NCBI GenBank assembly: GCA_021784455.1
Contig: JAJXSS010000003.1
Location: 1-32,662, forward strand
Length of the DNA stretch: 32,662 nucleotides
Reading direction: 5' to 3'
Source: Planctomycetota bacterium
GTDB taxonomy: Bacteria > Planctomycetota > Phycisphaerae > Phycisphaerales > Phycisphaeraceae
A program made the translations under genes and the position numbers. The notes under the pieces are model-generated. The model was given only the letters and a program-made list of their open reading frames with translations. It had not been told where the DNA came from and ran no database searches. Numbering within the stretch: position 1 is the first letter of the stretch; every line of letters begins with the position of its first letter. Positions 5,324 to 32,662 of the stretch are shown in pieces.

Positions 5324-5357
5324 ATCACCAGTGTAATGGTACGACTAAAATAAGGGT
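5324..5357. promoter_or_regulatory. 34-bp divergent intergenic region; candidate -10 TAAAAT at 5346-5351 for copA
   Basis: TAAAAT followed by AAGGGT and then ATG at 5358. On the minus strand TACACT-GGTGAT-ATG(5323). Confidence 0.45.
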
Positions 5358-7613: not shown

Positions 7614-7706
7614 ATCGGGCTGTGCTGCGACCTTCAATCCCCCGTTCGAACCACCAACCTGCCGAAGTCCCGGCGGCAGCGGCCCCGGCGTTTCGGCCCA
7701 ACGAAC

Positions 7707-7711
7707 GGAGG
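7707..7711 (+). promoter_or_regulatory. Ribosome binding site GGAGG
   Basis: AACGGAGGTTCTCATG upstream of 7717. Confidence 0.7.
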
Positions 7712-7716
7712 TTCTC

Positions 7717-8100: not shown

Positions 8101-8109
8101 GCGTGGCTC

Positions 8110-9024: not shown

Positions 9025-9282
9025 GAGGCGGCTCCTGTGATGACCGGTGGAACACCAAGGCACAGCCGCAACCGGCCATGGGACCTATCGGTCATTCCCC
9101 AAGGTGCCTAAACGGCACAGGCGGCATCTTTTGAGGGATTTCAATAAAGGCCGAGCCCGCCTGATTATCGGACCGCCCTGCCATCCAGCCCGTTGCGGGG
9201 TCGCATTGGGCGGGGCGCTGAATCCGGGCGGCTCAAAATGGGGGTCGCCCGTGAACGTACCCGCGATACCCATGATTTTCCC

Positions 9283-10134: not shown

Positions 10135-10179
10135 GGTCGGTACCAGAACAAAGTCGGTCTGCGTTGCGGGGTCATGCTT

Positions 10180-11544: not shown

Positions 11545-11552
11545 GTCGGAGC

Positions 11553-12518
11553 TCACGCGACCCGGGCCCGGGCGCCGCGCGACATCTTCCAGGGGGGGCT
11601 CATCCGCTTGGCTTCCTGCGAAAACGCCGCCAGCCGTTGCTGGAAGGCCGCGCCGCTCCAGGCCCGCACCAGGCAGCGCGGCAGGGCCAGCGGGTCGCAT
11701 GCGCGGGTGACCAGTCCGGGCACCGTGGTGCAGGCGGCGCTGAAGCCGGCTGTCTGCACCAGGCGCCGTGTCGTGGCGTTCCAGTCGCGCCGGCCCCCGA
11801 AGGGGTAGGAGAAGCTGTTCACCGACCGCCCCAGCCATGCTTCGATGACCCGCTTGCCCTGGGTGATCTCGTGGTCCTGCTCTTGCGGGTTCAGGGCCGA
11901 TAACTGGGGGTGGCTCAGCGTGTGGGCCCCGATTTCGATGAGCGGGTGGGCGGCCAGTTGCTTCAATTGCGTGTGGGTCAGGGCCGTGCGGGCCAACTGG
12001 TTCTCCCGCGCCACGCCCTGCCGGGCGGCCAGATCCCTCAGCATGCGGTCGCGCTGGGGCGCCGGCAGCGTTTTCAAGACACTGTGCAGGTCCTGCGGCA
12101 CGGGCCCAACCCCCGCGGCCGCACCGGCGCTGGAGATCAAGCTGTCCAGCTCATCCCACCAGAAGGCGCGCGCCGACCCGACCATATCCGCGGTGACGAA
12201 CACCGTGGCCGGCACTTCGAACTCTTCCAGGATGTGCAGGGCGTGCGTGAAGTTGTCGGCATAGCCATCGTCGAAGGTCACCACCATGGCGCGCCCGGGC
12301 GCCTGGCCGCGGCACAGGGCGGCCGTCAGGTCCGCCACGCCCATGACCCGGTAGTGCCGGCGCACGATGCTCATCTGCTGGCGGAATTGCTCGGGCGTCA
12401 CCGCCAACTGGTCATGGTCGGTCGCCAGTTCCGCCACACGGTGATACGCCAGGATGCAGGCGCCGGTCCGGCACCAGGCCAGGATTCTGGAGACCTGTTC
12501 TTGAAATGCGGTCTTCAT
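11553..12518 (-). CDS. Polysaccharide deacetylase (NodB/CE4 family, 321 aa)
   Basis: MVVTFDDGYADNFTHAL, IGAHTLSHPQLSAL, FSYPFGGR motifs. Confidence 0.9.
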   Translation of the reverse strand: MKTAFQEQVSRILAWCRTGACILAYHRVAELATDHDQLAVTPEQFRQQMSIVRRHYRVMGVADLTAALCRGQAPGRAMVVTFDDGYADNFTHALHILEEFEVPATVFVTADMVGSARAFWWDELDSLISSAGAAAGVGPVPQDLHSVLKTLPAPQRDRMLRDLAARQGVARENQLARTALTHTQLKQLAAHPLIEIGAHTLSHPQLSALNPQEQDHEITQGKRVIEAWLGRSVNSFSYPFGGRRDWNATTRRLVQTAGFSAACTTVPGLVTRACDPLALPRCLVRAWSGAAFQQRLAAFSQEAKRMSPPWKMSRGARARVA

Positions 12519-13252
12519 GGCCCCTCCCTGGGGGTACGGACCGCCCGGACACCCAGCAGCAGTTCGTAATCCCGATCCTGTGCGTCAAACTCTTCAGGTT
12601 TCAGTTCGTTGCTGGCCAGCCCTTGCAGGAACGCCGTGGCCGTCAGCACGTTGCCGTAAGCCTTCACCTCGACATGTCCCGGCGCAAACGCTTCTGCAAA
12701 GAACCGCCCCAGCGACAGGGATGTGAAGCGCCAGTAGTCGCCCCAGCGATCCATGTCGAAACGGGAGATCTGACTGATCCCCGCACAGGTGGCCAGCAGC
12801 ACGCCCCCGGGTTTGAGCGCCGCGGCCAGATGATGCAGGGCCTGGCGCACCTCGTAGATGAACCCCAGCGTCTGGGTCAGGATGATGCAATCGAAGGCCT
12901 CGGTGGGAATGCCGTCTCCGCTGACCAGGTCCCCGATCAGGGTGGCCTGCGGATCCCCCGCGCTCGTGTGCAGCACATCGGCCTGCGTCACCCGCTCGTC
13001 CCCGAACTTTCGCGTATAGACCGGTTCGGCGATTTCCAGCACGCGCCCCCGGATGTCCCGGCGATGGCTGACCAGGAAGCGCTCCATGTAGCAGCGGTCG
13101 ATGGGCAAGCCGCGGTCGAAGCCGAAGGTCCGGCTTACCGGGGTCAGCCGGCGCAGCGATCCCCAGCGCACGGCCGGGGGCCGCTGATGCCAGGCGCGCA
13201 GCCGGCGATACGCCGGGGCGGGCAGCACAGTTTTGGCGACTTGCTTCAGCAT
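12515..13252 (-). CDS. Class I SAM-dependent methyltransferase (245 aa)
   Basis: RGRVLEIAEPVYTRKFG ... FDCIILTQTLGFIYEVRQALHHLAAALKPGGVLLATCAG. ATGA overlap with the deacetylase start at 12518. Confidence 0.8.
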   Translation of the reverse strand: MLKQVAKTVLPAPAYRRLRAWHQRPPAVRWGSLRRLTPVSRTFGFDRGLPIDRCYMERFLVSHRRDIRGRVLEIAEPVYTRKFGDERVTQADVLHTSAGDPQATLIGDLVSGDGIPTEAFDCIILTQTLGFIYEVRQALHHLAAALKPGGVLLATCAGISQISRFDMDRWGDYWRFTSLSLGRFFAEAFAPGHVEVKAYGNVLTATAFLQGLASNELKPEEFDAQDRDYELLLGVRAVRTPREGP

Positions 13253-13280
13253 GGCATCAGCCCTTGCGATCGGGCGCCTT

Positions 13281-16229: not shown

Positions 16230-16236
16230 GTAGGTC

Positions 16237-17148
16237 TCACAGGGCCCGCACGGGGCGTGGAAAGCAGTAAACGTTGGTTATCGCGGCTTCATCCGGGATC
16301 TGGTCGAAGCGAGCCAGATCGAAGGGTTCAAAGTGGCGGGTGAACGTGAACTGGTCGTACCTCAGGTCCGCGACCAGGTCGTAGATCTGCTTCACAGTCG
16401 TGCCGGCCCGCTGCGCCGTCAGGCGGTTGTACTCGATAGCCAGCATCGGCCGGAACCGCTCCAGCACGCGGCGTCCCCCGCACAGGGCTTTGTATTCAGC
16501 GCCTTCGATGTCCATCTTCAGGAAATGCAAGGCGCTGGTCCCCGTCGCGCGCGCGAAATCGTCCAGCGTGGTGGTGGGTACGTTCAGTGTCCCTGGCCGG
16601 ACCTCCGCCGTCAGATACCCTACCCCGCTGCAATGGTGCAAAAACGCCGTATGATTCGTCACTTCGTCCGACGGCGGAACGAAAGACCCCACTCCCAACT
16701 GGTCCGTTACCGCCTGGGCATGCACGTGTACCCAGTCATAACCGTTGGTCTGGCAATTGCGGCGGACTTTGGCGGCATTGCCCGGCAGGGCCTCAAAGGC
16801 ATCCACTCGCCCCTGCGGGCCCACCAGCGACGCCATCAGCAGCGTGAACCAGCCGCGTTCCGTGCCCAGGTCCCACACGTGCTGGCCGGGACGGATGTGG
16901 TGCTGCATGACGCTGGTCATTTCCGGGTCGTAGTCGCCGAAAAAGAAGATTCCGGCCGAAGCGTAATCGTGAGGCGAGGCCCCGATGTTGAAGCCCCAGC
17001 GCGTGTAAACCGGCAGATCCTCATCGACGCACCACTTGCGCAGGTGATCGCGCACGAAATGCCGCGTCCCCAGCCCGGGGAACCGGCTGACCACGCAGCG
17101 CGAGGCCTTGGTGAAGAAAAGACGTGGCGAGACGATTTGCGTGCTCAT
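16237..17148 (-). CDS. FkbM family methyltransferase (303 aa)
   Basis: GQHVWDLGTERGWFTLLMASLVGPQGRVDAFEALP ... VPTTTLDDFARATGTSALHFLKMDIEGAEYKAL. Confidence 0.88.
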   Translation of the reverse strand: MSTQIVSPRLFFTKASRCVVSRFPGLGTRHFVRDHLRKWCVDEDLPVYTRWGFNIGASPHDYASAGIFFFGDYDPEMTSVMQHHIRPGQHVWDLGTERGWFTLLMASLVGPQGRVDAFEALPGNAAKVRRNCQTNGYDWVHVHAQAVTDQLGVGSFVPPSDEVTNHTAFLHHCSGVGYLTAEVRPGTLNVPTTTLDDFARATGTSALHFLKMDIEGAEYKALCGGRRVLERFRPMLAIEYNRLTAQRAGTTVKQIYDLVADLRYDQFTFTRHFEPFDLARFDQIPDEAAITNVYCFPRPVRAL

Positions 17149-17199
17149 CGGGGCTCCTCATTAGCGGGGCTGTGGCCCCTGTGGGGTTCGGCCGGCGCC

Positions 17200-18465
17200 T
17201 CAGGCGGCCCGGCTCCAGCTCACTTCGTTCCAGTGCACCGCCCCCCACGGCCGCTCCTGCCACAGGGGTACCTGGTGTTGATTGATCAGTTTGATCAGCG
17301 GCACATCCGTCAGGACATCAAAGGGCACACTTGCCGTGCTCTGGCAGATGCCGATGTCGGCGTAGTAGGCCCCCGGGGCCAGCGGCAGGCCCCGCACGTG
17401 CAGACGCACTTGGTGCGTTCCCGGGGCGGCCGAGAACCGGTATCCCTGGTCCCAGGAAAACAGGATCGCCACCTTCTGGTCGTATTCGTTCTTCAGGATC
17501 AGGGTCAGACTGGCATCGTGTACCGGCCGGTACACCTCCAGCGTGATCTCCACGTGGAAATCGGAGAGCATCGCCACTTCCGGCACCCGGGCCGGCAGGC
17601 CGTTGACAGCCAGACCGGTGACCCGCAAGGTCGGATCATCCTCGTGGTCCCGCCGGTAATACTCCAAGGGGTGCAGCGTCTGACCATCGGCATCGGCTGC
17701 GTCACCGTAGTAACGGTTGACCACCTCACCGGTGGGACCCAGAGTCAGCAGCCGGCCGGCGTGCAGGTAGGCACATCGCTGTGTCAGCGAACTGACCGCC
17801 CCCAGGTTGTGGCTGACAAACAACACCGTCCGCCCCTGGTTGGCCACATCCTTCATCTTGCCCAGGCATTTTTTCTGGAAGGCCGCGTCCCCCACCGCCA
17901 GGACCTCGTCGACGATCAGGATCTCCGGCTCCAGGTGGGCCGCCACCGCAAACGCCAGGCGCACGTACATGCCGCTGGAGTAGCGCTTTACGGGCGTATC
18001 CAGAAACGGCCCGATGTCCGCGAAATCCACGATGGCATCGAACCGCCCGGCAATGTCCCGCCGGCTCATGCCCAGCAGCGTGCCGTTCAGAAAAATGTTC
18101 TCCCGGCCGGTGAGTTCGGGATGAAAACCTGTGCCCACCTCCAGCAGGCTGCCCACCCGCCCGCGGATCCACGCCTGGCCCCGAGTGGGGCAGGTGATGC
18201 GTGAAAGAATCTTCAGCAGCGTGCTTTTGCCCGCCCCGTTGCGTCCGATAAAACCCACCACTTCGCCGCTCTTGATGCTGAAGCTCACATCCTTCAGGGC
18301 CCAGACCTCGCGCACTGGTACCGAGGCCACCGGCCGGCGCCGCAGCCGGGCCCAGGCCCGGCCCGCCGCGTCGTACACCGCCTCACGCAGCATGCCGCCG
18401 GGCCCCGCCGCCCCCAGCCGGTAGAGTTTGCTCAGTCCCTCGGCTTGAATGACCACGTCGCTCAT
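17200..18465 (-). CDS. wzt: Polysaccharide ABC transporter ATP-binding protein with Wzt-like C-terminal domain (421 aa)
   Basis: GFIGRNGAGKSTLLKILSRI Walker A, YSSGMYVRLAFAVAAHLEPEILIVDEVLAVGD, plus a C-terminal beta-sandwich-like segment as in Wzt-type ATPases. Confidence 0.88.
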   Translation of the reverse strand: MSDVVIQAEGLSKLYRLGAAGPGGMLREAVYDAAGRAWARLRRRPVASVPVREVWALKDVSFSIKSGEVVGFIGRNGAGKSTLLKILSRITCPTRGQAWIRGRVGSLLEVGTGFHPELTGRENIFLNGTLLGMSRRDIAGRFDAIVDFADIGPFLDTPVKRYSSGMYVRLAFAVAAHLEPEILIVDEVLAVGDAAFQKKCLGKMKDVANQGRTVLFVSHNLGAVSSLTQRCAYLHAGRLLTLGPTGEVVNRYYGDAADADGQTLHPLEYYRRDHEDDPTLRVTGLAVNGLPARVPEVAMLSDFHVEITLEVYRPVHDASLTLILKNEYDQKVAILFSWDQGYRFSAAPGTHQVRLHVRGLPLAPGAYYADIGICQSTASVPFDVLTDVPLIKLINQHQVPLWQERPWGAVHWNEVSWSRAA

Positions 18466-18469
18466 AAAG

Positions 18470-18504
18470 TCTCAGACCTCAGATCTCAGGTTTCGGGTCT
18501 GGGG
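18470..18504. repeat. Degenerate heptanucleotide tandem repeat (TCTCAGA CCTCAGA TCTCAGG TTTCGGG TCTGGGG)
   Basis: Five consecutive 7-mers in register immediately upstream of the wzt start codon (18465, minus strand). Confidence 0.55.
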
Positions 18505-18507
18505 GGT

Positions 18508-18529
18508 AGGTTCGGGCTGGCCCGAACCT
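18508..18529. repeat. Perfect 22-bp palindrome AGGTTCGGGC-TG-GCCCGAACCT; fourth copy of the 1937-2034 repeat family
   Basis: 10-bp perfect arms around TG, located one base beyond the wzm stop codon (18533..18531, minus strand). Confidence 0.85.
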
Positions 18530-18530
18530 G

Positions 18531-19496
18531 CTACACCACATCGGCAAACCGCCGCACCGAGCGGCCGTACCACACCAGTCCGCCCATCAGGCATAGCAGC
18601 GCCACGGCTGCCGATGCCGCCAGTTCGGCCAGCGGCAAGGGCGTGCCCAGGGCGATGGCTCGCAACGTTTCCACCGGCCCGCTCATGGGGTTTACCCACA
18701 CCAGCCCGCGCAGAATGCCCGGCAGCCGCTGGGAGGGCAGAATTACGGGGGTCAGGAACAGCCCAAGCTGCAGGGCAAACGGCACCACGTAACGCACATC
18801 CCGGTAGGTGACGCTCAGCGTGGCGACCCATATCCCCACGCCCGCGGCCGCCAGCACCATCACTGCCAGCGGCAGGGGCACCAGGAGCCATGCCATGGAA
18901 AGAGGAGTGTGATACCACACCATCATCCCCCCCAGCACCGTGCCGGCGATCGCGAAGTCGACCAGGGCCGTGCCCAGCGTGGCCAACGGCAGGATCAGCC
19001 GCGGGAAGTACACCTTCTGGATCATGCCCGCGTTGCTGATGAAGCTGCCCGCGGCGTTGCCCACCGCCGCGGCAAAGAAGCTCCACGGCAGCAGCCCTGT
19101 ATAGAGGAAGATGGGATACGCCACCCCGGGGTGGTCGGCGGCCTGGCCCAGCAGGGGCCCCAGCACGGCGCTCAGCACGATCATGGTCAGCACCGGCTGA
19201 AGCACCGCCCAGGCCGCCCCCAGCAGCGTTTGCTTGTAGCGTACCTTGATGTCCCGAGCCGTCAGCGACCACAGCAGGTCGCGGTAATGCCACAGACCCG
19301 GTAGATCCAGGCTTTGCATGCCTCCCAGGGGGCGGATCAGCGTTAACCGCTGCCCGCCGCGGGTAGAGGAGGCCTCGGCCAGGACCGGGATGGAGCTGGA
19401 TACCGTCGTCAAAGCGTCTCTCCGTACCTCGAAAGCGCGGCCGGCATACCGGCCCGTCCCAGGCCGCATTCCCGGCACCAGCGGCATATTCGTCAT
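18531..19496 (-). CDS. wzm: Polysaccharide ABC transporter permease, Wzm/ABC-2 type (321 aa)
   Basis: LWSLTARDIKVRYKQTLLGAAWAVLQPVLTMIVLSAVLG; six hydrophobic segments; adjacent to the Wzt-like gene. Confidence 0.88.
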   Translation of the reverse strand: MTNMPLVPGMRPGTGRYAGRAFEVRRDALTTVSSSIPVLAEASSTRGGQRLTLIRPLGGMQSLDLPGLWHYRDLLWSLTARDIKVRYKQTLLGAAWAVLQPVLTMIVLSAVLGPLLGQAADHPGVAYPIFLYTGLLPWSFFAAAVGNAAGSFISNAGMIQKVYFPRLILPLATLGTALVDFAIAGTVLGGMMVWYHTPLSMAWLLVPLPLAVMVLAAAGVGIWVATLSVTYRDVRYVVPFALQLGLFLTPVILPSQRLPGILRGLVWVNPMSGPVETLRAIALGTPLPLAELAASAAVALLCLMGGLVWYGRSVRRFADVV

Positions 19497-19635
19497 CGTC
19501 GCACCGCCGCCCGCACTTAAGTGTCTGTCGTTGCGGCGCTGCGGTCATGTAACCCCGGCGGACCCAACGGCAATTCCCAGAGGGGAATGTGGTAGACTTT
19601 CAAGTTGCCGGCCTCAGCCAAGGGATGGCTATCTG
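19497..19635. promoter_or_regulatory. Divergent intergenic region with dyad ATTCCC-AGAG-GGGAAT (19573-19588) and possible -10 TAGACT (19593-19598)
   Basis: Direct reading between the divergent starts at 19496 (minus) and 19636 (plus). Confidence 0.35.
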
Positions 19636-21456
19636 ATGCGCGTATTGGTCCTGATGAAATGGGCGGTGGGGGGGCTGGTCCTGAGCGCTTTGGCGGCCGG
19701 ACCGGTTATCGCGCAGGGCCCGGATCAGGCCGAAGAACGGTACTGGGCCATTCTCCGCAGCGGCACCGAGGTGGGCGCCACCACCTTGACCGACTGGGCC
19801 GATCCCGACAAAACTGCCCGCCTCGACAAGACCCCGCTCTTTGCCCCGCGCAATCCCGTGCGTCTGCTGTGCGATCGCTCGGTTAGCGTGGCCCTTACCG
19901 GCCCGCGTCTCCTTTTTCAGAACGGCGACATCCTGCCGGGCCAAGTCACGGAAATCCGCCCCGCTGATCCCACCGGCGGCTCTCCCGCCTATGCGCTGGT
20001 GCAACTGGCCGCCCCCTTTATAGGTCCGGATAACACCGCGCCGCTCCTGCCCGTGCGTCTGGATGCCGTGCGTCGCCTGCTGATGACGGACGATGTCCAG
20101 GAGGATTACCAGCCCAACAGCATCATCCTCAAGGACGGCCGCCGGTTATCGGTCCTGGGCCTGCGCTGGACCCGGGATGGGGTGCGGGTGCTGGTTCAGG
20201 GGCAGATTCTCAGCCTGGCCCTCAAGGATCTGGCCGAAGTGGACCTGCCCGCGGCCGATCTGGTTCATCTGGTCCTGGCCCAGAACGCCTACCCCGGTCC
20301 GCGGGCTGATGGCCTCATCGGCCGGCTCCGCGCCAGCAACGGCGCCGCGCTCACCTTCCGCAGCGACATGCTCAGGCCCCTGGCGATTCAGACCGGCGCT
20401 GGGCACCATGCCAAAAGCAGTCTGGCCTGCGTGCAGGTCCAGCCGGGCTGGGCCCTGGAACCCCTGACTCTGCCCGTGGATGAAGTTGCTGTCTCCGATT
20501 ACTGGCGGCCCACGGATGTGCCCCTGTCCCTTCTGCCGGCCCGCACCCTGCAGGAAAAGAGCTATACCGGTTACCTCTGGCACTGGCGCCGCAATCTGGA
20601 TGTTCGCGGGGGCCTGCTGGAAGTCGGCCGTATGTCTGCCGACCTGGGGGTGGGGATGCACTCGCTCTCCCAGGTGGCCTTCACGCTGCCGCCTTCGGCC
20701 CAGGCCTTCTGGAGCATCGTGGGCCTGGCCCGCGATGTCGGCAGCGGCGGTTGCGTCAACCTTCAAGTCACCCCCGATGATCCGGGCCACGCGCCGCTGT
20801 GGCGCCGCGATTTTGTTCGTGGTACTGATGGCCCCATCGTGGTCGGCCCCGTCCCCCTGCCCCAGGCCGCCGGCCAGATGGTGCTGTCGGTGGGCTTTGC
20901 CGATCACAACCGCCCCCAGGGGGCTGACCCCATGGATATCCGCGACCGGGTGAATTGGCTGATGCCCCTGGTGGAGATTGACCGCGCCGTGCTGCCCCAG
21001 CCCCAGCAGGACTGGCGCTATTACCTGCCCGTTCTGGATGATTGGCAGCCCGGTGTGGACCTGGCCCAGGTAGGCCGGCTGGGGGTGAACTGGGATCCAT
21101 CAGGCCGGCGCTGGGAAATGACCCTGGACACGGCCCACGGCGGCTACCAGCTCACCCGGCGCATCGAGGTTCTGAGCCCGGATGCCGCCCTGGGCCTGAC
21201 GGTCGCCCGCACGGGGGAGGGGGCTGCTCCCATCCTGACCCTGCAGGTTGCTGGTAGCACCGCGGCCCCGCAACAACTCGATACCCGTAGCGCCCAGCCC
21301 GGCGCCGATGCCACCGTTTCCTGGCCGCTGCGCGATTTTGTCAACAAAACCATTAATCTGGTTCTGACCGTGTCGCCGCCTTCGGGGGCCACCATGGGCC
21401 CGCTGGCCTGGCGGCGTCTGGGCATCACGGGCAACGGGCCGCCGGCCCACCCCTAG
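19636..21456 (+). CDS. Exported protein with NPCBM-like domain (606 aa)
   Basis: Signal peptide MRVLVLMKWAVGGLVLSALAAGPVIAQ; segment RNLDVRGGLLEVGRMSADLGVGMHSLSQVAFTLPPSAQAFWSIVGLARDVGSGGCVNLQV resembles NPCBM domains. Start re-assigned from 19318. Confidence 0.7.
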   Translation: MRVLVLMKWAVGGLVLSALAAGPVIAQGPDQAEERYWAILRSGTEVGATTLTDWADPDKTARLDKTPLFAPRNPVRLLCDRSVSVALTGPRLLFQNGDILPGQVTEIRPADPTGGSPAYALVQLAAPFIGPDNTAPLLPVRLDAVRRLLMTDDVQEDYQPNSIILKDGRRLSVLGLRWTRDGVRVLVQGQILSLALKDLAEVDLPAADLVHLVLAQNAYPGPRADGLIGRLRASNGAALTFRSDMLRPLAIQTGAGHHAKSSLACVQVQPGWALEPLTLPVDEVAVSDYWRPTDVPLSLLPARTLQEKSYTGYLWHWRRNLDVRGGLLEVGRMSADLGVGMHSLSQVAFTLPPSAQAFWSIVGLARDVGSGGCVNLQVTPDDPGHAPLWRRDFVRGTDGPIVVGPVPLPQAAGQMVLSVGFADHNRPQGADPMDIRDRVNWLMPLVEIDRAVLPQPQQDWRYYLPVLDDWQPGVDLAQVGRLGVNWDPSGRRWEMTLDTAHGGYQLTRRIEVLSPDAALGLTVARTGEGAAPILTLQVAGSTAAPQQLDTRSAQPGADATVSWPLRDFVNKTINLVLTVSPPSGATMGPLAWRRLGITGNGPPAHP

Positions 21457-21496: not shown

Positions 21497-22624
21497 ATGC
21501 CAAGATCAATCTGGCACGTCTGGTGTCTGATACTGCTGCTGATGCCCGCCAGCCTGCGTGCCGAAGGCGAGTGGGAGATCACTCCCCAGAGCCAGCACGC
21601 GGCCGATCTGGGACTGCAGTGGCTGGCTCACAATCAGGGGCCCAACGGCAACTGGCGCAGCAACAACCTGGGCCTGGTGGGGATGGGCGTGCTGGCTTTC
21701 CTCTCCGCCGGGTATACCGATCACGGCCGCTACGGCTCGGTCGTGCGCCGCGGCCTCGATTTCATCCTGGCCAACGCCAAGCCCTCGGGTCTGCTCAACA
21801 TCACCGAAGGCCAGCACGACATGTACAACCACGGTCTGGCCACCTTCGTGCTGACCCAGGCCTACGGCATGGTCGACGACCGCCGCATCGGACCCGTCCT
21901 GGATAAGGCCCTCAAGCTCATTTGCGATGTCCAGTGCGATGATGGCGGCTGGGATTACCGTGCCGTGCGTCTGCGCCAGGGCCATGACTGCTCCCTGGCC
22001 GTCATGCAGGCCAAGGCCCTGCGTGGGGCCATGGATGAGGGCTTTGATATCCCGCCCCACACCGTGGAAATGGCCATCGCCGCCGTGCGCCGCTATTACT
22101 GGATTTCCGGCCCGCCCGATGGGAAAGGCGCCCAGTATGGCTCCGACCCCCTGGCCCAGAGTCCCGGCCGCTTCACCTACCAGGGCAATCAGGGCAATTC
22201 CACCACCGCCATGGCCGCCGCCGGCGTCGTCTGCCTCCAGGAATTCGGCCAGTACGGGGATTTCCGCATCCTGCGCTCTCTGGATGCGGTCATCGCCGAC
22301 ATCCACCGCGAGTGCAAGCCCAAACGCGGCGTGCTGCCCCTGGATCCCTACACCATGTACTACGTGGCCCAGGGGCTGTACCAGGTCGGCGGCCAGCGCT
22401 GGCGGCAGAACTACCCCTTCCTCCGCGACGCCATCGTGAAATCCCAGAACACCAATCCCAACCCCGCCGATCTGGGCTCCTGGGAATCGGGCAAGTGGGT
22501 CACTGGTCCCGACAGCCGCCTCTGGGGCACGGCAGTGGGCGTCTTTACGCTCAGCATCCCCAACCGCTACCTGCCCCTGTTGCAGCAGGTGCCCCCTGAA
22601 ACACTGCGAGCCCCGACGCCATGA
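21497..22624 (+). CDS. Exported prenyltransferase/squalene-cyclase-repeat-like protein (375 aa)
   Basis: Signal peptide; QW-type motifs QGPNGNW and QCDDGGW (QxxxGxW); alpha-toroid-like helical repeats. Confidence 0.75.
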   Translation: MPRSIWHVWCLILLLMPASLRAEGEWEITPQSQHAADLGLQWLAHNQGPNGNWRSNNLGLVGMGVLAFLSAGYTDHGRYGSVVRRGLDFILANAKPSGLLNITEGQHDMYNHGLATFVLTQAYGMVDDRRIGPVLDKALKLICDVQCDDGGWDYRAVRLRQGHDCSLAVMQAKALRGAMDEGFDIPPHTVEMAIAAVRRYYWISGPPDGKGAQYGSDPLAQSPGRFTYQGNQGNSTTAMAAAGVVCLQEFGQYGDFRILRSLDAVIADIHRECKPKRGVLPLDPYTMYYVAQGLYQVGGQRWRQNYPFLRDAIVKSQNTNPNPADLGSWESGKWVTGPDSRLWGTAVGVFTLSIPNRYLPLLQQVPPETLRAPTP

Positions 22625-25098
22625 GTTTTTTGTCCGCAGGATTTCTTGGAGCCCTGGTGGCTGTGGCCGGTCCGCTGGCCATCCATCTGCTGAACCGGCG
22701 CCGCTTCCGCACCCTGGAATGGGCCGCCATGGACTTCCTGCGCGATGCGGTCAAGCGCAACAAGCGCATCCTCGATATCCGCGACCTGATTCTGCTGCTC
22801 TTGCGCACCCTGGCCGTGCTCTTCTTCGTGCTGGCCATGGCCCGGCCTTACTGGTCGGCCTCGGGCGCCGCGGTCGCCGGCCGTAACCAGCCCGTGCACG
22901 CCGTGGTGGCCATCGACAACAGCCTCTCCATGGGCTACACCGAACTGGACAAATCTCTGCTCGATATTGCCCGTGACCGGGCGGATGCCTTCCTGCGGTC
23001 GTTGCCCGCCAATTCCCAGGTTTCCCTCGTGGTCATGTGCCCCTCCTCCGATGACCAGGGTCGCCTGGGCTCCCTGGGCGTGCAGGATGCCATCGAGGCG
23101 CTGGACCAGGTGCACGTGGTGGATCGCCAGGCCAATCTCACCGATGCCGCCGAGCAGGTGCGAGCCATGCTCGCCCTGCCCGGGGCCCCCGGCGCCAAGT
23201 ACGTCGTGTTCTTCAGCGATATGCAGGCCCAGACCTGGTCCGCCTCGGGCGCCGCCCAGGTGCTCAAGGGCGTTTCCCCCATCCACGTCGTGCAGGTCGG
23301 CCAGCCCGGCCGCGACAATACCTGCGTCGCCGATTTCCGCCTGCGCGACGGCATCGCCGATGCTCAATCCCCGGCCGTCTTCATCGCCACCCTCCGCCAT
23401 TTCGGCACCCAACCCCATCCCCGCCTGCGCGTCTCGCTCAAGATCGACCACCAGGTCGTCGAGGAGCGCCAGGTGGATCTGGAGCCCAACCAGCCCCTGG
23501 AGGTCATGTTCAAGTACCGCTTCACCGCCGCCGGTACGCCCCACGATCCGCTCTTCGTCCCCGCCACCGTGGAACTGGAACACGACCACCTGGCGATGGA
23601 TGATTCCCGCAGCATCATCGTCCCCGTGGTGGCCAGCGTGCCCGTGGTCTTCGTGGATCAGCTTGGGGCACGCGAAGACCCCAGCCAGAACCGCTTCGGC
23701 GACACCCTGCCTCTGCGCCGCCTCCTGGCCCCGCGCAGCCAACTGGCCGGGGGCCCCAACCAACTCGTCCAGGTCCGCCACATCACCCCCGACCAGATTA
23801 CCCGCGAGGTCCTTAAGGACGCACGCCTCACTGTCATCGCCGGCGTGCGCAGCATCAGTCCTGAGACCGACCGCCTCCTGCGCCAGTACGTCGAGCAGGG
23901 CGGCCAGCTCATCATCGCCGCCGGCGGCGACTTCGACCCCGTGGCCTGGGATGCCGCCGCCTGGCGCAGCGGCGCGGGGGTTCTGCCCCTGCCGCTGCGT
24001 CCCCAACTGATCGGACAGTTGCCCACGGCCGACCACCCCAACATCCCCACCTTCCACCTTGACCCCCGCAGTTTCGACGATCCCCTGTTCCGTCTGGCCC
24101 TGCCCCAGTCCACCTATCAGGACCTGCTGGCCTCGCCCTTCTTTTTCATGAGTGCCGCCGTGGACGAAAAGGCGCCGCGGCCCGATTCCCAGGTTCAGCG
24201 TGCCCGCCTGGAACAGGCCCGCCTGTGGCTGGCCGATGCCGATGAACTGCAGCGCCACTGGGCCGACCTTGCCAGCCAGGGCAAACTCACCGAGGACGAC
24301 CGCCGCCAGCGTGCCCGGCTTGCCCAGGTCCGTCAGGAGATGGGCCCGCGCTGGGTCCTGTGGTCCAATCCCCTGGCCCCCGACCCCTGGTTGCGGCCCA
24401 TGGACCAACTGCTGGCCCAGAGCCAGCCCCGTATCATCGGCCGCTATACCAACGGCCAAGCCTTCGCCGTGCGCCGCGACCTGGGCCGCGGCACCATCCT
24501 CTTGATCACCACCGGCATCTTCCCCCTGTGGAATAACATGGCCGTCGACCAAAGCGTGCTGCTCTTCGACCACGCCATGCGGGCCATGCTGGCTCACACT
24601 CTGCCCACCCAGACCTTCGGCCCCCGGTCCGTGCTGACCATCCCCCTGGAATCCCGCGATCTGGGGGCCACCTTCACCCTCCAGCGTCCCGGGGCCGGCC
24701 CGCCGGTGCCCCTTCTGGCCGAGGCCCTGGGCGAGCGGGCCTACGGCCTGCGCATCCGCTATCCGGTGCAGCGCGGTATCTACACCATCCGCCGCACCCC
24801 CGGGCCCGGCGAAGCCGCCGACCCGGCCGGCCAGGCCAACTGGACCTTGCAACTGGCCGTCAACGGCCCCGCGGAAGAAAGTGATCTGACCCCTATCGAC
24901 GCCAAGCAACTGGCTCAGCGGCTGAGCCCGCTCACCATCCGCTGGGTCAACCCCGGCGAATCGATCGCCATCGCCAGCATCAGCGTTGAGCGTCATGACC
25001 TGTGGCGCTATCTGATGCTGCTGGCCCTGCTCTGCCTGGCCGCGGAAATGGCGTTCCTGGCCTTCGGCCGCTCCTTCAGCCGGAGGAACAGCGCATGA
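22621..25098 (+). CDS. BatA N-terminal/vWA domain membrane protein (825 aa)
   Basis: MSFLSAGFLGALVAVAGPLAIHLLNRRRFRTLEWAAMDFLRDAVKRNKR BatA-type N-terminus; AIDNSLSMGY (DxSxS MIDAS). Confidence 0.85.
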   Translation: MSFLSAGFLGALVAVAGPLAIHLLNRRRFRTLEWAAMDFLRDAVKRNKRILDIRDLILLLLRTLAVLFFVLAMARPYWSASGAAVAGRNQPVHAVVAIDNSLSMGYTELDKSLLDIARDRADAFLRSLPANSQVSLVVMCPSSDDQGRLGSLGVQDAIEALDQVHVVDRQANLTDAAEQVRAMLALPGAPGAKYVVFFSDMQAQTWSASGAAQVLKGVSPIHVVQVGQPGRDNTCVADFRLRDGIADAQSPAVFIATLRHFGTQPHPRLRVSLKIDHQVVEERQVDLEPNQPLEVMFKYRFTAAGTPHDPLFVPATVELEHDHLAMDDSRSIIVPVVASVPVVFVDQLGAREDPSQNRFGDTLPLRRLLAPRSQLAGGPNQLVQVRHITPDQITREVLKDARLTVIAGVRSISPETDRLLRQYVEQGGQLIIAAGGDFDPVAWDAAAWRSGAGVLPLPLRPQLIGQLPTADHPNIPTFHLDPRSFDDPLFRLALPQSTYQDLLASPFFFMSAAVDEKAPRPDSQVQRARLEQARLWLADADELQRHWADLASQGKLTEDDRRQRARLAQVRQEMGPRWVLWSNPLAPDPWLRPMDQLLAQSQPRIIGRYTNGQAFAVRRDLGRGTILLITTGIFPLWNNMAVDQSVLLFDHAMRAMLAHTLPTQTFGPRSVLTIPLESRDLGATFTLQRPGAGPPVPLLAEALGERAYGLRIRYPVQRGIYTIRRTPGPGEAADPAGQANWTLQLAVNGPAEESDLTPIDAKQLAQRLSPLTIRWVNPGESIAIASISVERHDLWRYLMLLALLCLAAEMAFLAFGRSFSRRNSA

Positions 25099-27530
25099 TG
25101 CACTGGCTGGGCTGGCTGCTGGGTATTCGCGACCTCGAGTCAATCCACGACTGGAGGCTGGGTTTCGCCGCCCCCTGGGCCAGCCAGCGTCCGGCCCTGG
25201 TCCTGTTCGCCGCCCTGATCCTGGCTGCCGCCACCGTCGTCTTTTACCTCCGCCGTCAGGCCGTGGCCCGGCGCCGCGGGCAGATCTCCCTCATCACTCT
25301 GCGCACCCTGTTGCTCCTGCTGCTCCTGCTGTGCCTGGCCGAACCCACGCTCATGCTCGGCTACACCCGCACCTCGCGGGCTCTCCTGGTCATGCTCTTC
25401 GACAACACCGACAGCATGAACATCGCCGACAAGCTCTCGGCTGAGGATCGCAAGGCGCTGGCCGATGTGGTCAGTTCCACCGCCGGCACCAAGGGCCCCG
25501 ACGCCACCCGCGTCCAGCTCGTGCGCCGCGCGCTCGAACAGGACCGCACCGGTATCTTCGCCCGCCTGGCCCGGCGTTACCGCCTGCGCCTCTACGCCCT
25601 GGACCGCCCCGACCAGGTCCGGCCCCTGGAGGTCGGCGAAGAGGAAGGGGCCCCTCTGGACCACGACGCCTTCGTCGCCCTGGCCAAACAGCTTCAGCCG
25701 ACCGGTCAGGTCACCGCCCTGGGTTCGGCCCTCAACGATCTGGCCCGCCGCCACCAGGGCCATCACGTGGCCGGCGTGGTCATCTTCAGCGACTTTGACA
25801 ACAACGCCGGGCCCGACCCCCTGGCCGCCGCACCGGGCGTGGACGCACCCCTGTTTACCGTGGGCCTGGGGCCCAAGCAGGCGGTGGACCTGTCCGTCGC
25901 GCTCCAGGCCCCTCTGATCGTCAAGAAAGGGGAGAAGACCGACGTCACCGTCACCATCCGCCAGTCCGGCCTGACCGGCCGCAGCACCGAGGTGCAGCTT
26001 CTGGCCCGCCGTCTGGGTGCTTCCGGTGATGAGGCCCTGCAGACCTCGGCTACGCCCGTGGGTCCGGCTCGGCCCATCACCCTCGACCGCGACCAGATGT
26101 CCGTGGAGTTGCCCTTCACCCCCGATACCGCCGGCCGCTTCGTCCTCCAAGCCCGCGTCCCTCCCTTCGAGGATGAGGTTTTGGACGACAACAACACCGC
26201 CGAGCGTGACATCACCGTCCAGGATGAGTCCCTCAAGGTGCTCTTCATCGAATACGAGCCCACCTGGGAGTGGCGCTTCATCAAGGAGGTCTTTCACCGC
26301 GATCCGCTGGTGGGGCTCCAGGGCTTCCGCACCTTCCTCCAGTCCGCCGATTTCAAGGTCCGTACCACCAACCCCCTGTTCCTGCCCACCCTGGTGCGGC
26401 CGCGTTCCGAGTTTTTCTCGTACGATGTCATCTTTCTCTCCGATGTGCCGGCCGAGATGCTCAGCCCGCATTTCCAGGACATGCTCCAGGAATACGTCGG
26501 CAGCTTCGGCGGCGGGCTGGTCGTGATCTCCGGGCCCCGTTTCGGTCCCCAGGCCCTGGCCAACACCAAGATCGCCGGAATGCTGCCGGTGGTGGTCGAT
26601 CCCAACGCCCAGATCCGCGACCGCCATCCCTTTACCCTGCAACTGACCCCCCAGGCCTCCCAGTACGATTTCATGCGCCTGGGGGACACTCCCGAGGAAA
26701 ACCAGCGGGCCTGGGCCAACCTGGGCAAGCTGCCCTGGTACCAGCCGGTCCTGCGCCCCCATCCCCTGGCCACCGTACTGGCCCAGCACCCCACCGACAA
26801 GTGTGTCGATGGCGTCACGCCCCAGCCCCTGATCGCCATCCGCCGCTACGGCAAGGGTGAAGTCGTCTATTTCGGCTTCGACGAAACCTGGCGCCTGCGC
26901 CGCCTCTACGGCGAAAAGTATTACCGCCAGCTCTGGGGCCAGATGATGTATCACCTGGGCCTGTCCCGCGCCCTGGGGTCGCAGAAGCGTTTCCAGGTCC
27001 GTACCGACCGCAGCGCCTATCAGACCGGCGACAAGGTGCGTCTGACCGTGGAAGCTTACAACAGCGACTTCGAGCCCCTGGGCCTGCCCGCGCTGAGTGC
27101 CGAGTTACTGCCGCCAGCGGGCGATCCCACCGCCAAACCCCAGGAAATCAGCGTACCCCTGGCCCGCGGCAAGAACATCTATGAAGTCAGCTTCCCCGTC
27201 TTTACCGAGGGATCGCACCGGGTTTTGGTGCATGACCCCGTCACCAACCGGTCGGTAGAGGTCAATTTTAAGGTGGCCCCGCTGACGGCCGAACGCCGCA
27301 GTGCCGTTCGCGATACCGCCCTCCAGCAGGCCCTGGCGGCCAAGACCGGCGGCCAGGCCCTGGAACTGTCTCAGATCGACCGCCTGGGTAAGCTTTTAAC
27401 GCAGTCCAGGATCAACCTGCCCGTAGAGCACGATACCCGCCCCCTCTGGGACACCTGGCTGTTCCTCCTGCTGGGGCTGGCCCTGATGCTGGGAGAATGG
27501 ACGCTTCGCAAGCTGATGAACCTGCCATGA
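25095..27530 (+). CDS. Membrane vWA/glutamine-amidotransferase-like protein (811 aa)
   Basis: N-terminal TM segments; LVMLFDNTDSMNIADK degenerate MIDAS; VLFIEYEPTWEWRFIKEVF ... YDVIFLSDVPAEML ... SFGGGLVVISGPRFGP GATase1-like segment. Start at the ATGA overlap rather than 25002. Confidence 0.8.
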   Translation: MMHWLGWLLGIRDLESIHDWRLGFAAPWASQRPALVLFAALILAAATVVFYLRRQAVARRRGQISLITLRTLLLLLLLLCLAEPTLMLGYTRTSRALLVMLFDNTDSMNIADKLSAEDRKALADVVSSTAGTKGPDATRVQLVRRALEQDRTGIFARLARRYRLRLYALDRPDQVRPLEVGEEEGAPLDHDAFVALAKQLQPTGQVTALGSALNDLARRHQGHHVAGVVIFSDFDNNAGPDPLAAAPGVDAPLFTVGLGPKQAVDLSVALQAPLIVKKGEKTDVTVTIRQSGLTGRSTEVQLLARRLGASGDEALQTSATPVGPARPITLDRDQMSVELPFTPDTAGRFVLQARVPPFEDEVLDDNNTAERDITVQDESLKVLFIEYEPTWEWRFIKEVFHRDPLVGLQGFRTFLQSADFKVRTTNPLFLPTLVRPRSEFFSYDVIFLSDVPAEMLSPHFQDMLQEYVGSFGGGLVVISGPRFGPQALANTKIAGMLPVVVDPNAQIRDRHPFTLQLTPQASQYDFMRLGDTPEENQRAWANLGKLPWYQPVLRPHPLATVLAQHPTDKCVDGVTPQPLIAIRRYGKGEVVYFGFDETWRLRRLYGEKYYRQLWGQMMYHLGLSRALGSQKRFQVRTDRSAYQTGDKVRLTVEAYNSDFEPLGLPALSAELLPPAGDPTAKPQEISVPLARGKNIYEVSFPVFTEGSHRVLVHDPVTNRSVEVNFKVAPLTAERRSAVRDTALQQALAAKTGGQALELSQIDRLGKLLTQSRINLPVEHDTRPLWDTWLFLLLGLALMLGEWTLRKLMNLP

Positions 27531-29191
27531 CGCAACTGGCCGCCGTCCATCACGGTCTGAATCAGGTCCGGCGCTTCCGCTCCGCGATGCGCCTGGGCTC
27601 GGCCTGGTGCCTGGCCGTGTGCATCCTGCTCTGGGCCCTGTTGGCCGAGTTCGGGCTCGACCTCTGGGTGCGCATGGGGCAGTTGGAACGGGGCATCCTC
27701 CTGGCGGCCATGATCGGCCTCATCCTCTGGGTGTTTGGGCGTTTTATCCGCCCGGTCCTGGGCGTGCGCGAGGATGAGACCAGCCTGGCCCTATTGGTCG
27801 AACGCAACCAGGGCATCCATTCCGACCTGGTCGCGGCCCTGCAATTTGCCGAGCCCGGCCGCGGGCAGTCCGGTTCGGCCGCTCTGCGCCAGGCCGTGGT
27901 GGACTACGTCGGTGAACTGGCCCCGAGCCTCAACTTCCTCGAAGGTTTCCCCGCCCGGCAACTCGTGTGGCGCATCGGCCTGACCGCGGCCACCCTCATC
28001 GTCTGGCTGGGGCTGGTTCTGCTGGCCCCCCACTACGTGCTGGCGTTTGCCAACCGTTTTGTCGTTGGCTCGGCCACCTATCCCACCCGCACGCGCATCG
28101 TCCAGGTGATCCGGCCCGGGTTGCGGGCCGCCTATGGCCAGCCCGTGCTCTTCGAGGTGCAGGCCGCCGGGTGGCTGCCCGAAACCGGCGTCGTCCAGTT
28201 GCGCACCCGCAGTGGCGACGCCACCACCACCGTGACCCTGCACCGCAGCCTGGACCGGCCGGGCCAGTACACCGGCCGGTTCGAACGCCTGCTGGATCAG
28301 GCCCAGTACACCGTCCAGATCGGCGATGCCTCGCTGGGCCCGCGTCCCCTGGCCCTGATTCCGTTGCCCAGCGTCACTTTGAACCTCCAGATCACCACGC
28401 CCGCGTACGCCCGCGCCCGTTTCCACCAATCCAGCGAGGTCGGCTCCCTGCGCACCGCCCTCGAAGGCTCCCGCGTCGTCCTGATCGTCAAGGCCGACAA
28501 GCCCCTGCGCTGGGCCCGACTCACCCTGGACGGCAAGGTCTATCCCCTGACCCGGGCGGGCGACCACTTCGTGCTCGACCGGCCCGATACCCCCCTGGCC
28601 CACGTCACCGACACCCTGCACGGTCAAGTCCAGGTTCAGGATGAGGACGGCCTGTCCCTGGATCGGCCCTTGAACCTCATGCTCCTGGTCCGACCGGACA
28701 ACCCCCCGCGTATCGCCGCCGCTGCCGTCACCCGCGTCGTGATGCCCGATGCCGTGCCCTCCCTGCGCTACCAGGCCGTCGATGATTTCGGCCTGGCCCA
28801 ACTGACCCTGCACATGGCTATCACCCGCGCCGGCGATGAGCAGGAGGCCGCCTCCCCGCTGGCCACCACCCAGCCCTCCACCTCCCGGCCGGGGGACGAA
28901 ATCACCCGCACCGTGGCCCGCTTCGACGCCCATCCCCTGACCGCCGAGGGTACTCTCACCATCCCGCTGGCTTCCCTGCACCTGACCAAAGGCGACCGCG
29001 TGGCGGTGACCCTCGAGGCCACCGATTGGCGCGGCGGCTTGCCCGGCAAATCCACCCGCAGTGAAACCCTCGTGTTCGAGGTGACCGACCGCCAGGGTGT
29101 TCTGGCAACGATGGACGAACTGAATGATCAGATGAGCCACCGTCTCGACGAGATCATCCGGGCTCAACTGGGGATTGGAGGCCGGCCATGA
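27527..29191 (+). CDS. Membrane protein similar to the N-terminal part of DUF4175-type proteins (554 aa)
   Basis: Two N-terminal TM segments followed by LGVREDETSLALLVERNQGIHSDLVAALQFAEPG and beta-rich periplasmic repeats. Confidence 0.65.
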   Translation: MTQLAAVHHGLNQVRRFRSAMRLGSAWCLAVCILLWALLAEFGLDLWVRMGQLERGILLAAMIGLILWVFGRFIRPVLGVREDETSLALLVERNQGIHSDLVAALQFAEPGRGQSGSAALRQAVVDYVGELAPSLNFLEGFPARQLVWRIGLTAATLIVWLGLVLLAPHYVLAFANRFVVGSATYPTRTRIVQVIRPGLRAAYGQPVLFEVQAAGWLPETGVVQLRTRSGDATTTVTLHRSLDRPGQYTGRFERLLDQAQYTVQIGDASLGPRPLALIPLPSVTLNLQITTPAYARARFHQSSEVGSLRTALEGSRVVLIVKADKPLRWARLTLDGKVYPLTRAGDHFVLDRPDTPLAHVTDTLHGQVQVQDEDGLSLDRPLNLMLLVRPDNPPRIAAAAVTRVVMPDAVPSLRYQAVDDFGLAQLTLHMAITRAGDEQEAASPLATTQPSTSRPGDEITRTVARFDAHPLTAEGTLTIPLASLHLTKGDRVAVTLEATDWRGGLPGKSTRSETLVFEVTDRQGVLATMDELNDQMSHRLDEIIRAQLGIGGRP

Positions 29192-32100
29192 AAAGCACCT
29201 CTTTGTTCCTGGCGTTGGGCTTGGTGCTGTTCCTGGCGGCCGCGGCGCCGCTGCGGGCCGATCCGGGCCTGGATCAGGCGCGGGCCGATCAGGAACGGGC
29301 CCAGTCCCTGGCCCGGGATATGCTCACCAACCTCCTGGACAGCAACCTCCAGCAGTTGCGCGAAAACCTGCTCACCACCACGCCGCTTTACCAGGACCTT
29401 AAGACCCTTCGCGACCGTATGAATGAGCTGGCCAATGAGGATATGGCCGATGTGGTCGATCTCTTGACCCGCAGCCTCTCGGCCACCGGTCCGGAAAGGA
29501 CCGAATTGGTCGGCCGGGCCCAGGCCCGCATGCGTCAGATTCTGGTGCGCCTTTTGGCCGAACGCGAAAAGCTTCGCATCCGCCGCAAGCACGCCCAGTT
29601 GATGGACATGATCAGCGAGGTGCTCCAGAAGCAGATCGACACCCGCGATCAGACTCAGATCCTCACGGCCCGCGATGAACAGGCGGCTCTCGACGTCAAA
29701 GGCTCCCAGAAGACCGTCAACGATACGTACGCCAGCCTGAGCAGTGCCCTCCAGGAGGTCAGCACCTGGTCCGGGGACCTGGGCGCCGCCGCCGCCGCCG
29801 CCGCGCACATGCTCTCGGATCAGAAGGTCGGCCCCCAGTTGAGCGCCGCCCTCGATAATCTGGTGGCCCTGCGTTTTCCCCAGGCCGTTACCGCCCAGAA
29901 CCAGGTCATCGCCTCCCTCCAGAAGGTTCTGGCCGAACTGCGCAAGCTGACCGCGCCCGCCTCCGAGCGTGCCGAGGCCCTGGCCCTGATCCGCCAGCTC
30001 CTTCAGCAGCAGCAGGGCCTGCGCGACCGCATCAAGCCTATCCCCCTCACCGCCGATGTGGTGGATGCCTTCTACAAGGAACAGGCCGGTATTCAGCAGA
30101 AGATTCAGAAACTCTATGCGCTGGTGCCCGACAGCTCCCGTACCACCCCGCTGATGACCCGCGCCGATGCCGCCGCCGGCGCCGCCGGCCAGGCTATTTT
30201 CAACACCGACAAGCCTACCACCCTTGATCAGCAGGACCGCGTGATCGGCGCCCTGGCCCAGTTGGAAAAGGAAATCCAGCAGCAGATCGCCCAGGACAAC
30301 AAGCCCAAGAGCGCCGATGAACTGGCCCACGAGGCCCATCAACTGGCCCAGGCCCGTGAGCAGGTGGCCCAGGCCCTGGATAAGGAGGTCCAGGCCCAGC
30401 GCACCGCTCCCCGCGAGACCGCCCAAGCCGCCAAGCTGATGACCCAAGCCAGGGCCACCCTGGCCCAGGCCGCCAAGACTGCTGATATCCCTGCCACTGT
30501 CAGGGCCCGGATCGCCACTGCCGCTCAGGACGCCGCCCATGCCGCCGAACATCTCCAGGCCGGCAGCCAGGCCAAGCCCGAGGTCAAACAGGCTCAGGAT
30601 TCCGCCCGCCTGGCCCTGGGTGAAACCAACGATGCCCAGGCCAAGGACAACCGTGATGCCATGGCTGTGCGCCTGGGGGAACTCAACCGCGCCGCCGAGG
30701 CCCTGTCGCGTGCCGCCGCCGCTGCCCGCATGGCCGCCGGGAATGTCCAGAAGGGCCCTAAGGGTACCCAGCCTGCTAAAGGCCTATTGCAGCAGGCCGA
30801 TGATGTGGCCCGCCACATCGACCAGGGCGTCAAGGAGGCCGTGCCCGCCACCAATGCTCCGCTGGCCCAGGCCATCGCGGCCGGGGACAAGGCCCAGGCC
30901 CAGATGCCCCAGGCCGCTCAGCCTCGGGGCGTAGAGGCCCGCCAGGCCGCCGCTTCCCATTCCCAGGCAATGGCACGCAACCTCGATCAGGCCGCCCAGG
31001 CCATCCGCCAAGCCATGGTGGATACCGCCAAGAAGCTCGACAGCACTGCTACCGCCGAAATGGCGCAGGTCGATCAATTGAAAAACCAGGTCGATCAAGC
31101 CCGCCAGCAGAACGACAGTGGCAAGGCCACCCCTCCAGCGTTGCAGCAGTTGGCCGACCAGGCCACCCCCCAGGCCCCCGATGTCGGCGCCGCCGTCCGC
31201 GACGCTGCCCAGGCCGCCCACAATCCGCCCGTCACCCAGCCCGCGGCCTCAAACCCGCCCGGTCACCCGATCGAGCCTCCCGCCGGCCAGAATCAGCCCA
31301 CCGGGGCCAATGCCGTCAATCAGGAACTCAGCCGGGCCCAGACCCTGGCCGAAGTCCGCCACGACAACCTCGAAGACTATAAGCGTCTGGCCCAGGAAAT
31401 GGCCGCCGCCGCCCAGGCGCAGATGCAGGCCTCTGACCAGATCGCCCAGGGCCGCCAGGACCTGGCCAAACAGGACAACCAGTCGCCGCAGAACCAGGCC
31501 CAGCAGCAGGCCCAGGACCAGCAGAAGCCCAATCCAGCCGCTCAGCAGTTGGCCCAGGCCATGAATGACTTCGCCGAGGCCGCCACCACCTTGGGGGAAT
31601 CTGTCCAGAAGGCCACCGGGCAGTCTGAAATCGCCAACCAGCCCATTCGCCAGGGAGTCGAAGCGGCCAACGCCATCCCCACCCCCCCACCCCAAGGGCA
31701 GGAGCAGCCACAGGGCCAGGGTGAAGATCAGCAGCAGGCTCAGGGCCAGCCGCAACAGCCACAGGGTCAGGAGCAGGCTCAAGGTCGGGACCAGCAGCAA
31801 CAGGGTCAAGGCCGGCAGCAGGCCCAGGGCCAGCAGGGGAGGTCGCCACAGTCGGGGGCAGGCATGAAGCCCGAAGACGCCTTGGGCACCGCGATGGCCA
31901 TGGCCGGGCCGCAGGCCGCCCAGGCCGCCATGAAGGCCATGGGTCAGGGCCAGCAACCCGGCCAGGCCGGTCAGCAGCCGGGCCAGCAATCCGGTCAGCA
32001 GCCTGGCCAGCAGGCCAATCAGGGCAAGGGCGGCGATCAGGTCAGTACCGGTCTGGTCCGCGGCCAAACCAGCCGCCAAGTTAATGCCGGTGGCCAGCGC

Positions 32101-32259
32101 GGCGGCGACACCGCCGTTACCGATGCCCAGCCCGCCCCCCAGGTCTGGTCCACCCAATTCCCGCCCGCCGTGCGCCAGGCCATGCGGGCCACCGAAAAGC
32201 AGACCCCGCCGCCGGGCTACGAAGAGCGGCTGCGCCAATACTTTGAGAGTGGGAACTGA
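29188..32259 (+). CDS. Exported coiled-coil, Ala/Gln-rich protein with low-complexity Q/G tail (1023 aa)
   Basis: Signal peptide; long Ala/Gln/Asp helical region; [19 protein letters not shown]..., [23 protein letters not shown]-terminal [33 protein letters not shown]. Confidence 0.8.
31690..32040 (+). repeat. Low-complexity Q/G-rich coding tract
   Basis: Repeated cag/ggc/cag codons encoding QGQ/GQQPGQ units. Confidence 0.8.
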
Positions 32260-32285: not shown

Positions 32286-32662
32286 ATGAGCAACGTTACC
32301 GCTAGACCGGAAGTCAGCCGCGACGATGTCGTCGCCGTCGAGCAGTGGGAAAAGACCTACCGCCAACTCAGGCAGGAACTGGGCAAGGCCATCGTCGGCC
32401 AGCACGATGTCATCGAGCAGATGATTGTGGCCATCCTGGCCAAGGGGCACTGTCTGCTCGAAGGTGTGCCCGGCCTGGCCAAGACTCTGATGGTCTCCAG
32501 CCTGGCCAAGGCCCTGTCCCTGTCCTTCCACCGCATCCAGTTCACGCCCGACCTGATGCCCTCGGACATCACCGGCACCGATGTGCTGCAGGAAGACCCC
32601 ATCACCCGCGAGCGCAAGTACGTCTTCGTGAAGGGGCCCGTCTTTGCCAACATGATCCTGGC
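32286..32662 (+). CDS. MoxR family AAA+ ATPase, 5' part (truncated by the window end)
   Basis: Translated by eye: [102 protein letters not shown]; Walker [19 protein letters not shown] upstream. Absent from the ORF track because it is open-ended. Confidence 0.92.

Follow-up and report, generated by a model that had tools for sequence, protein, structure and literature searches.

What kind of machine is encoded by the run of overlapping envelope genes that closes contig JAJXSS010000003.1 of a Planctomycetota bacterium (GenBank assembly GCA_021784455.1, Phycisphaeraceae), and does the overlapping of these genes mean that their products work together? The whole contig of 32,662 nucleotides was analysed and is referred to as the window; it corresponds to contig C53 in a genome of 4.17 Mb that is broken into 528 contigs. 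The answer proposed here, to which we assign a probability of about 50%, is that the locus belongs to a second family of planctomycete MoxR-DUF58-BatA modules, here termed "group A", and encodes a Bat-type, ATP-driven envelope machine. A sequence-only reading of this DNA had already described the genes as a MoxR-vWA envelope module, and both domain content and conserved gene order in Planctomycetota support that description. The genes are designated as follows:

g0, 19636..21456, plus strand: exported NPCBM/NEW2-domain protein (Pfam NPCBM, E=6.8e-7)
g1, 21497..22624, plus strand: exported alpha/alpha-toroid (squalene-cyclase-like fold) protein, 375 aa
g2, 22621..25098, plus strand: BatA-type inner-membrane vWA protein, 825 aa
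g3, 25095..27530, plus strand: membrane vWA plus pseudo-GATase1 protein, 811 aa
g4, 27527..29191, plus strand: DUF4175-like protein, 554 aa
g5, 29188..32259, plus strand: exported Q/A-rich protein, 1023 aa
g6, 32286..32662, plus strand: MoxR AAA+ ATPase, cut by the contig end and continuing on contig C117 (L045:1-678)
g7, L045:792-1700 (contig C117): DUF58 protein, after moxR

Public genomes were scanned with a g3 alignment, which gave 80 loci (81 with the window), and gene order was scored with profiles for all genes. The order g1-g2-g3-g4-g5-g6-g7 (toroid–BatA–vWA/GATase–g4–Q-rich g5–MoxR–DUF58) was complete in 34/81 loci, including two that carry moxR twice and one in which g5 is spread over two frames; most of the loci without the full order are cut by contig ends. 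The loci belong mostly to Planctomycetia and Phycisphaerae, and, among named genomes, the closest orthologs come from metagenome-assembled genomes of Phycisphaerae/Phycisphaeraceae. Across a sample of the phylum, g3 of group A was found with more than 570 bits in at least 20 of 292 genomes (three candidates were scored per genome), and a gap in bit score separated group A (575) from the next best match (396). At the level of the order, a close g4 was present in 5 of 400 sampled genomes. In a tree, the g3 proteins of group A fall together in a single clade (support 100/100), apart from those of the sister modules described below, which is partly expected because the group was gathered by similarity. 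Locus L111 is labelled Kiritimatiellia, but in the tree its g3 branches among the phycisphaeral sequences, so that transfer or misbinning is possible. The g3 of Pirellulaceae-type loci (L118, L122) likewise falls within the phycisphaeral clade, suggesting transfer or misbinning. In L111 and L182, two moxR genes stand in tandem between g5 and DUF58.

Overlaps of the form NTGA were kept at g2/g3 in 45/63 loci, at g3/g4 in 27/67 and at g4/g5 in 42/61. The overlap at g1/g2 was seen in 4/54 loci and is mostly private to the focal genome; the corresponding counts were 1/42 for g5/moxR and 0/38 for moxR/DUF58. Pooled, the three inner junctions had the overlap in 114/191 cases versus 5/134 for the other three; Fisher tests of the inner junctions against the others gave p between 1e-10 and 5e-24 (nominal because the loci and sequences are related). 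Since the overlaps are kept at the three inner junctions and not at g1/g2, g5/g6 or g6/g7, coupling by overlap, as judged from sequence comparison, is a property of g2-g5, the membrane and exported subunits, and not of the whole unit. The sequence-only reading had staked its proposal on conserved order and overlaps. The order is indeed conserved in Planctomycetota, even between distant relatives; of the strict coupling, the part concerning g2/g3, g3/g4 and g4/g5 stood, the g1/g2 junction did not, and MoxR and DUF58 proved almost never to be ATGA-coupled. The subunits may form a physical complex of fixed stoichiometry.

Within the window, the coordinates of the open reading frames on the plus strand confirm all four ATGA junctions that had been read from the letters (g1/g2, g2/g3, g3/g4 and g4/g5), as well as the start of moxR at 32286, 26 bp past the stop of g5. 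In-frame starts further upstream exist for g3 (GTG 25002) and g4 (ATG 27497). The overlap starts 25095 and 27527 are preferred because ortholog alignments begin at these positions and a GGAGG-type site precedes 25095. Such sites are also found ahead of g5 and moxR; g2 and g4 have no clear site. The gap between g0 and g1 is 40 bp, and g0 is the probable first gene of the transcription unit. Its start is uncertain, the longest reading frame beginning at 19318, and an ortholog lies immediately upstream in 9-10 related loci, only a subset of the relatives. A scan for sigma-70 promoters gave no site and was uninformative.

The window ends inside moxR. Contig C117 of the same genome begins inside a MoxR gene, followed by DUF58 and a convergent gene that is probably, by sequence inspection, a cobyric acid synthase gene. 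The C117 fragment and the N-terminal piece in the window show 72% and 71% identity, respectively, to the same MoxR ortholog (L085), while MoxR proteins of other modules show 37-66% identity to both pieces; the DUF58 protein of C117 is 62% identical to that of L085. As both MoxR pieces match one ortholog best, C117 is very probably the continuation of C53. The join itself we infer, because approximately 45 nt including Walker B fall into the gap between the contigs. With the rest of moxR and DUF58 on C117, the operon comprises at least seven genes. DUF58 or other Bat genes had been anticipated to the right of moxR, and DUF58 does follow there, given that C117 continues C53.

Each of the domain labels proposed from the sequence (QW/cyclase-fold, BatA/vWA, vWA/GATase, DUF4175-like and MoxR) is supported, some by matches under the curated Pfam cut-off. 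By its profile matches, g6 is a member of the MoxR AAA+ family: the truncated gene matches AAA_3 (PF07726, 1.6e-24), and the full-length L085 ortholog matches both AAA_3 (2.4e-61) and the lid, AAA_lid_2 (3.2e-14), over cut-off. The comparison of MoxR with PDB entry 2r44 gave 1.5e-76. A vWA domain is present in the DUF58 protein g7. MoxR and DUF58 are predicted to be cytosolic-type proteins, and g2 and g3 membrane-anchored vWA/GATase-like proteins.

For g2, Pfam returned BatA (1.7e-17) and VWA_2 (6.4e-8), and two_anch scored 6.6e-20. The protein has a double-transmembrane (TM) N-terminus, a vWA domain with DxSxS...D, a GATase-like segment and a C-terminal TM helix. The metal-ion-dependent adhesion site (MIDAS) residues D99, S101, S103 and D200 are invariant in 46 sequences. 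The positively charged TM1-TM2 loop is among the best conserved segments (0.75 vs 0.56 for the vWA domain) and is a candidate contact for MoxR/DUF58. In g3, weak matches to DUF7408 and MG2 and a GATase1-like match to 3rht (E=0.004) were obtained. Its MIDAS residues D103-x-T/S-x-S107, T207 (T/S) and D233 are conserved in 42 sequences, and the GATase elbow V-I-A-G-P-R lacks the cysteine nucleophile.

The N-terminus of g1 is signal-like, and its AlphaFold model (predicted local distance difference test, pLDDT, 90) is an alpha/alpha toroid. The best Foldseek matches were AprG, squalene-hopene cyclase, complement C3 and GH76, with TM-scores of about 0.55. Across 27 loci, g1 identity is 48-61%. Assignment to the squalene/hopene (terpene) cyclase family was rejected: SQHop_cyclase_C (E=1.2e-4, 21.7 bits vs a cut-off of 26.1) and hopene_cyclase (19.5 vs 431) both score under their cut-offs, so the fold is shared and family membership is not.

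The layout of g4 comprises N-terminal TM helices, tandem immunoglobulin (Ig)-like domains and a C-terminal helix (AlphaFold pLDDT 89, predicted template modelling score 0.61), and Foldseek matched it to multi-Ig ectodomains. Its DUF4175 match (PF13779, E=4.4e-6) reaches 25.5 bits and stays below the gathering score of 27.3, yet 24/39 g4 orthologs match the family at E<0.01 (best 9.9e-9), aligning to about positions 184-395 of the 825-position profile. For these reasons, g4 appears to be a distant relative of DUF4175 rather than a filed member. The following g5 contains one hydrophobic N-terminal segment and no further TM helix, and is rich in Q (15.7%) and A (18.9%). A signature of approximately 40 residues, W..LPP..R.AIR...P.GYEErL..YF (window 32125-32256), stands at the end of 42/42 complete g5 proteins. 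Within a genome this tail is strong only at g5, with essentially one strong copy per genome. An NCBIfam search of g4, g5 and the giant proteins described next found nothing meaningful.

Paralogous sister modules with the order MoxR–DUF58–BatA–vWA/GATase–giant–toroid occur in the same and in related genomes (e.g., L092 and L094); pieces of them lie on contigs C176, C8, C288 and C528 of the focal genome. In these modules, the g4 profile recognises the N-terminal portion of long proteins (frames of about 800-1400 aa and longer), giants of 2000-3000 aa terminate with a motif similar to the g5 tail, and the g5-tail profile matches the C-terminus of a 1077-aa protein in genome G007 (E=7.4e-6). Because the two profiles match the two ends of the giants, g4 and g5 together correspond to one giant protein of about 1100-3000 aa. 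The sequence-only reading had treated the DUF4175-like and the Q-rich protein as two unrelated proteins; the profile matches instead point to two halves of one chain. A third, partly split arrangement was found in L090, L091 and L098. As side observations, one sister MoxR-BatA module encodes a 3015-aa Ala/Gln-rich giant (L094:2432-11479), and a sister-module toroid homolog of the focal genome (G000:C176:4714-5670) has an in-frame TGA in the matched stretch, which may be the gene end, a sequencing error or a pseudogene.

Ahead of g0/g1, many relatives carry an extracytoplasmic function (ECF) sigma gene followed by a gene here called gX (L108, L114, L138, L161, L171, L180, L190, L195 and L196). 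It encodes a protein of 1300-1700 aa with a PQQ-type beta-propeller and, in some, PA14; in the focal genome, an ecf–gX pair is on a separate contig (C524). Beyond ECF sigma, gX and g0, no conserved client gene was found in the neighbourhoods of the relatives. Further upstream in the window, an envelope polysaccharide cluster (2060-19548) encodes an LptD-N-like protein, several glycosyltransferases, a polysaccharide deacetylase, an FkbM methyltransferase and a Wzt-like ABC transporter; a heavy-metal P-type ATPase adjoins it.

How could such a machine work? The vWA, Ig-like and g5 parts would face the periplasm, as suggested by the positive TM1-TM2 loops and by the BatA homologue BB0173, the vWA domain of which was shown to be periplasmic (PMC5700661). 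MoxR, with DUF58 as a vWA adaptor, may act on the short conserved cytosolic loops of BatA and g3, in a role modelled on NorQ-NorD, where NorQ remodels the NorD linker (PMC13036017), or on RavA-ViaA. In this way it could drive a conformational or assembly cycle of a periplasmic platform. As g4 and g5 together would replace one giant chain, their translational coupling would be accounted for; they may form one extended arm, the terminal signature of g5 docking to a partner. Overall, the machine would assemble, mature or remodel a component that is exported or sits at the surface, possibly under ECF sigma factor control in many relatives. In its most specific form, which we regard as unlikely to hold, the proposal is a planctomycete-centred trans-envelope machine: two vWA/GATase proteins in the periplasm would transmit ATP hydrolysis by MoxR/DUF58 to an Ig-plus-coiled-coil arm split into g4 and g5, with the tail docking to a vWA MIDAS, g1 or the outer membrane, giving an energised, periplasm-spanning arm for outer-envelope assembly.

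Several observations weigh against the Bat-type envelope machine. Hydropathy and charge were the sole basis for the topology, and the hydrophobic segment at the C-terminus of g3 escaped the automatic threshold. The MIDAS Thr position of g2 was not identified in the 46-sequence comparison. Loci L121, L146, L153, L159 and L169-L172 show only g3 or only g3-g4-g5 despite adequate flanks; the unit can therefore be broken up, or the partners are too diverged to be detected. Finally, deletion of batABD in Leptospira biflexa left growth and morphology unchanged (PMC3557215), and Bat-type modules may therefore be dispensable.

Among other explanations, a maturation chaperone inserting a metal or cofactor into one periplasmic enzyme, possibly g1, as MoxR does for methanol dehydrogenase or NorQD for NO reductase, is to be doubted, even though most MoxR-vWA pairs with an established function serve in maturation (PMC13036017, PMC3893208). 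The client role would suit g1, which is conserved better than any other subunit and has many polar residues that are invariant and a fold that includes enzymes (AprG transaldolase, terpene cyclases, GH76). However, no metalloenzyme or redox gene is conserved beside the operon, NorQD-type systems have neither a long g5 arm nor a double membrane-anchored vWA platform, and a non-exhaustive search identified no known toroid-enzyme catalytic signature in g1. Somewhat less probable still is an oxidative or envelope stress operon of the Bat type, whose products would buffer the periplasm without a single client. The Bat core of BatA, vWA, MoxR and DUF58 (PMC5700661) and the upstream ECF sigma gene of many relatives fit this explanation, but the TPR and SH3 partners BatC/D/E were not found among the operon genes, and the Leptospira deletion (PMC3557215) argues against it as well.

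Ordinary operon compaction without functional coupling appears improbable as the source of overlaps and gene order. ATGA is a common junction between bacterial genes, but NTGA was kept across classes at three junctions and not at the other three of the same operon (114/191 vs 5/134). That the operon is a MoxR-vWA ternary system serving phage defence or conflict is very improbable. Such systems are present in planctomycetes (PMC7159879), and bpMoxR matches g6, though far below AAA_3. PADLOC models match none of the seven proteins, so a known anti-phage defence system was rejected. The bpMoxR ternary system was rejected too: no effector and no beta-propeller-vWA fusion was found, g2 and g3 contain no propeller, and the PQQ propeller of gX in relatives is not fused to vWA. 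The conserved order, high conservation, lack of effector swapping and envelope location also speak against a conflict system.

No description of the operon was found in the open-access literature searched, the absence there being no proof of novelty, and neither MoxR nor vWA comes up in the main text of the essential-gene study on Planctopirus. All the protein families are known ones. The same literature yielded no account of their combination, of the conserved permuted order, of the split giant or of the terminal signature.

MoxR–Bat modules occur widely, and what they do is known only for a few maturation systems. The focal operon shares with the Bat operon the presence of MoxR, DUF58 and BatA-like proteins with an N-terminal double-TM and a vWA domain predicted to be periplasmic. 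In contrast to it, MoxR and DUF58 come last, BatC/BatD/BatE-type genes were not found (no TPR, BatD or SH3 match in Pfam among the operon proteins), and an exported toroid, vWA-GATase fusions, a DUF4175-like Ig-domain protein and the Q-rich g5 are added. With NorQ-NorD and RavA-ViaA it has in common a MoxR-type AAA+ protein with a soluble vWA partner, here DUF58; unlike them, it encodes no client enzyme and possesses further vWA proteins in the membrane as well as an extended arm that is exported. DUF4175 we take to be an alphaproteobacterial family with a Gln/Gly-rich C-terminus, whereas in the focal operon the low-complexity part is a separate gene, g5. The sister planctomycete modules contain equal components when counted as domains, overlapping genes and a related giant C-terminus, but differ in their permuted order, in the fusion of g4 and g5 (1100-3000 aa) and in a separate g3 clade. 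Compared with them, the present variant shows which parts belong together: seven ordered genes, three conserved translational couplings, and a sister giant that here corresponds to two coupled genes. For genetically tractable planctomycetes, it provides a set of defined subunits, a terminal signature and interfaces that can be tested.

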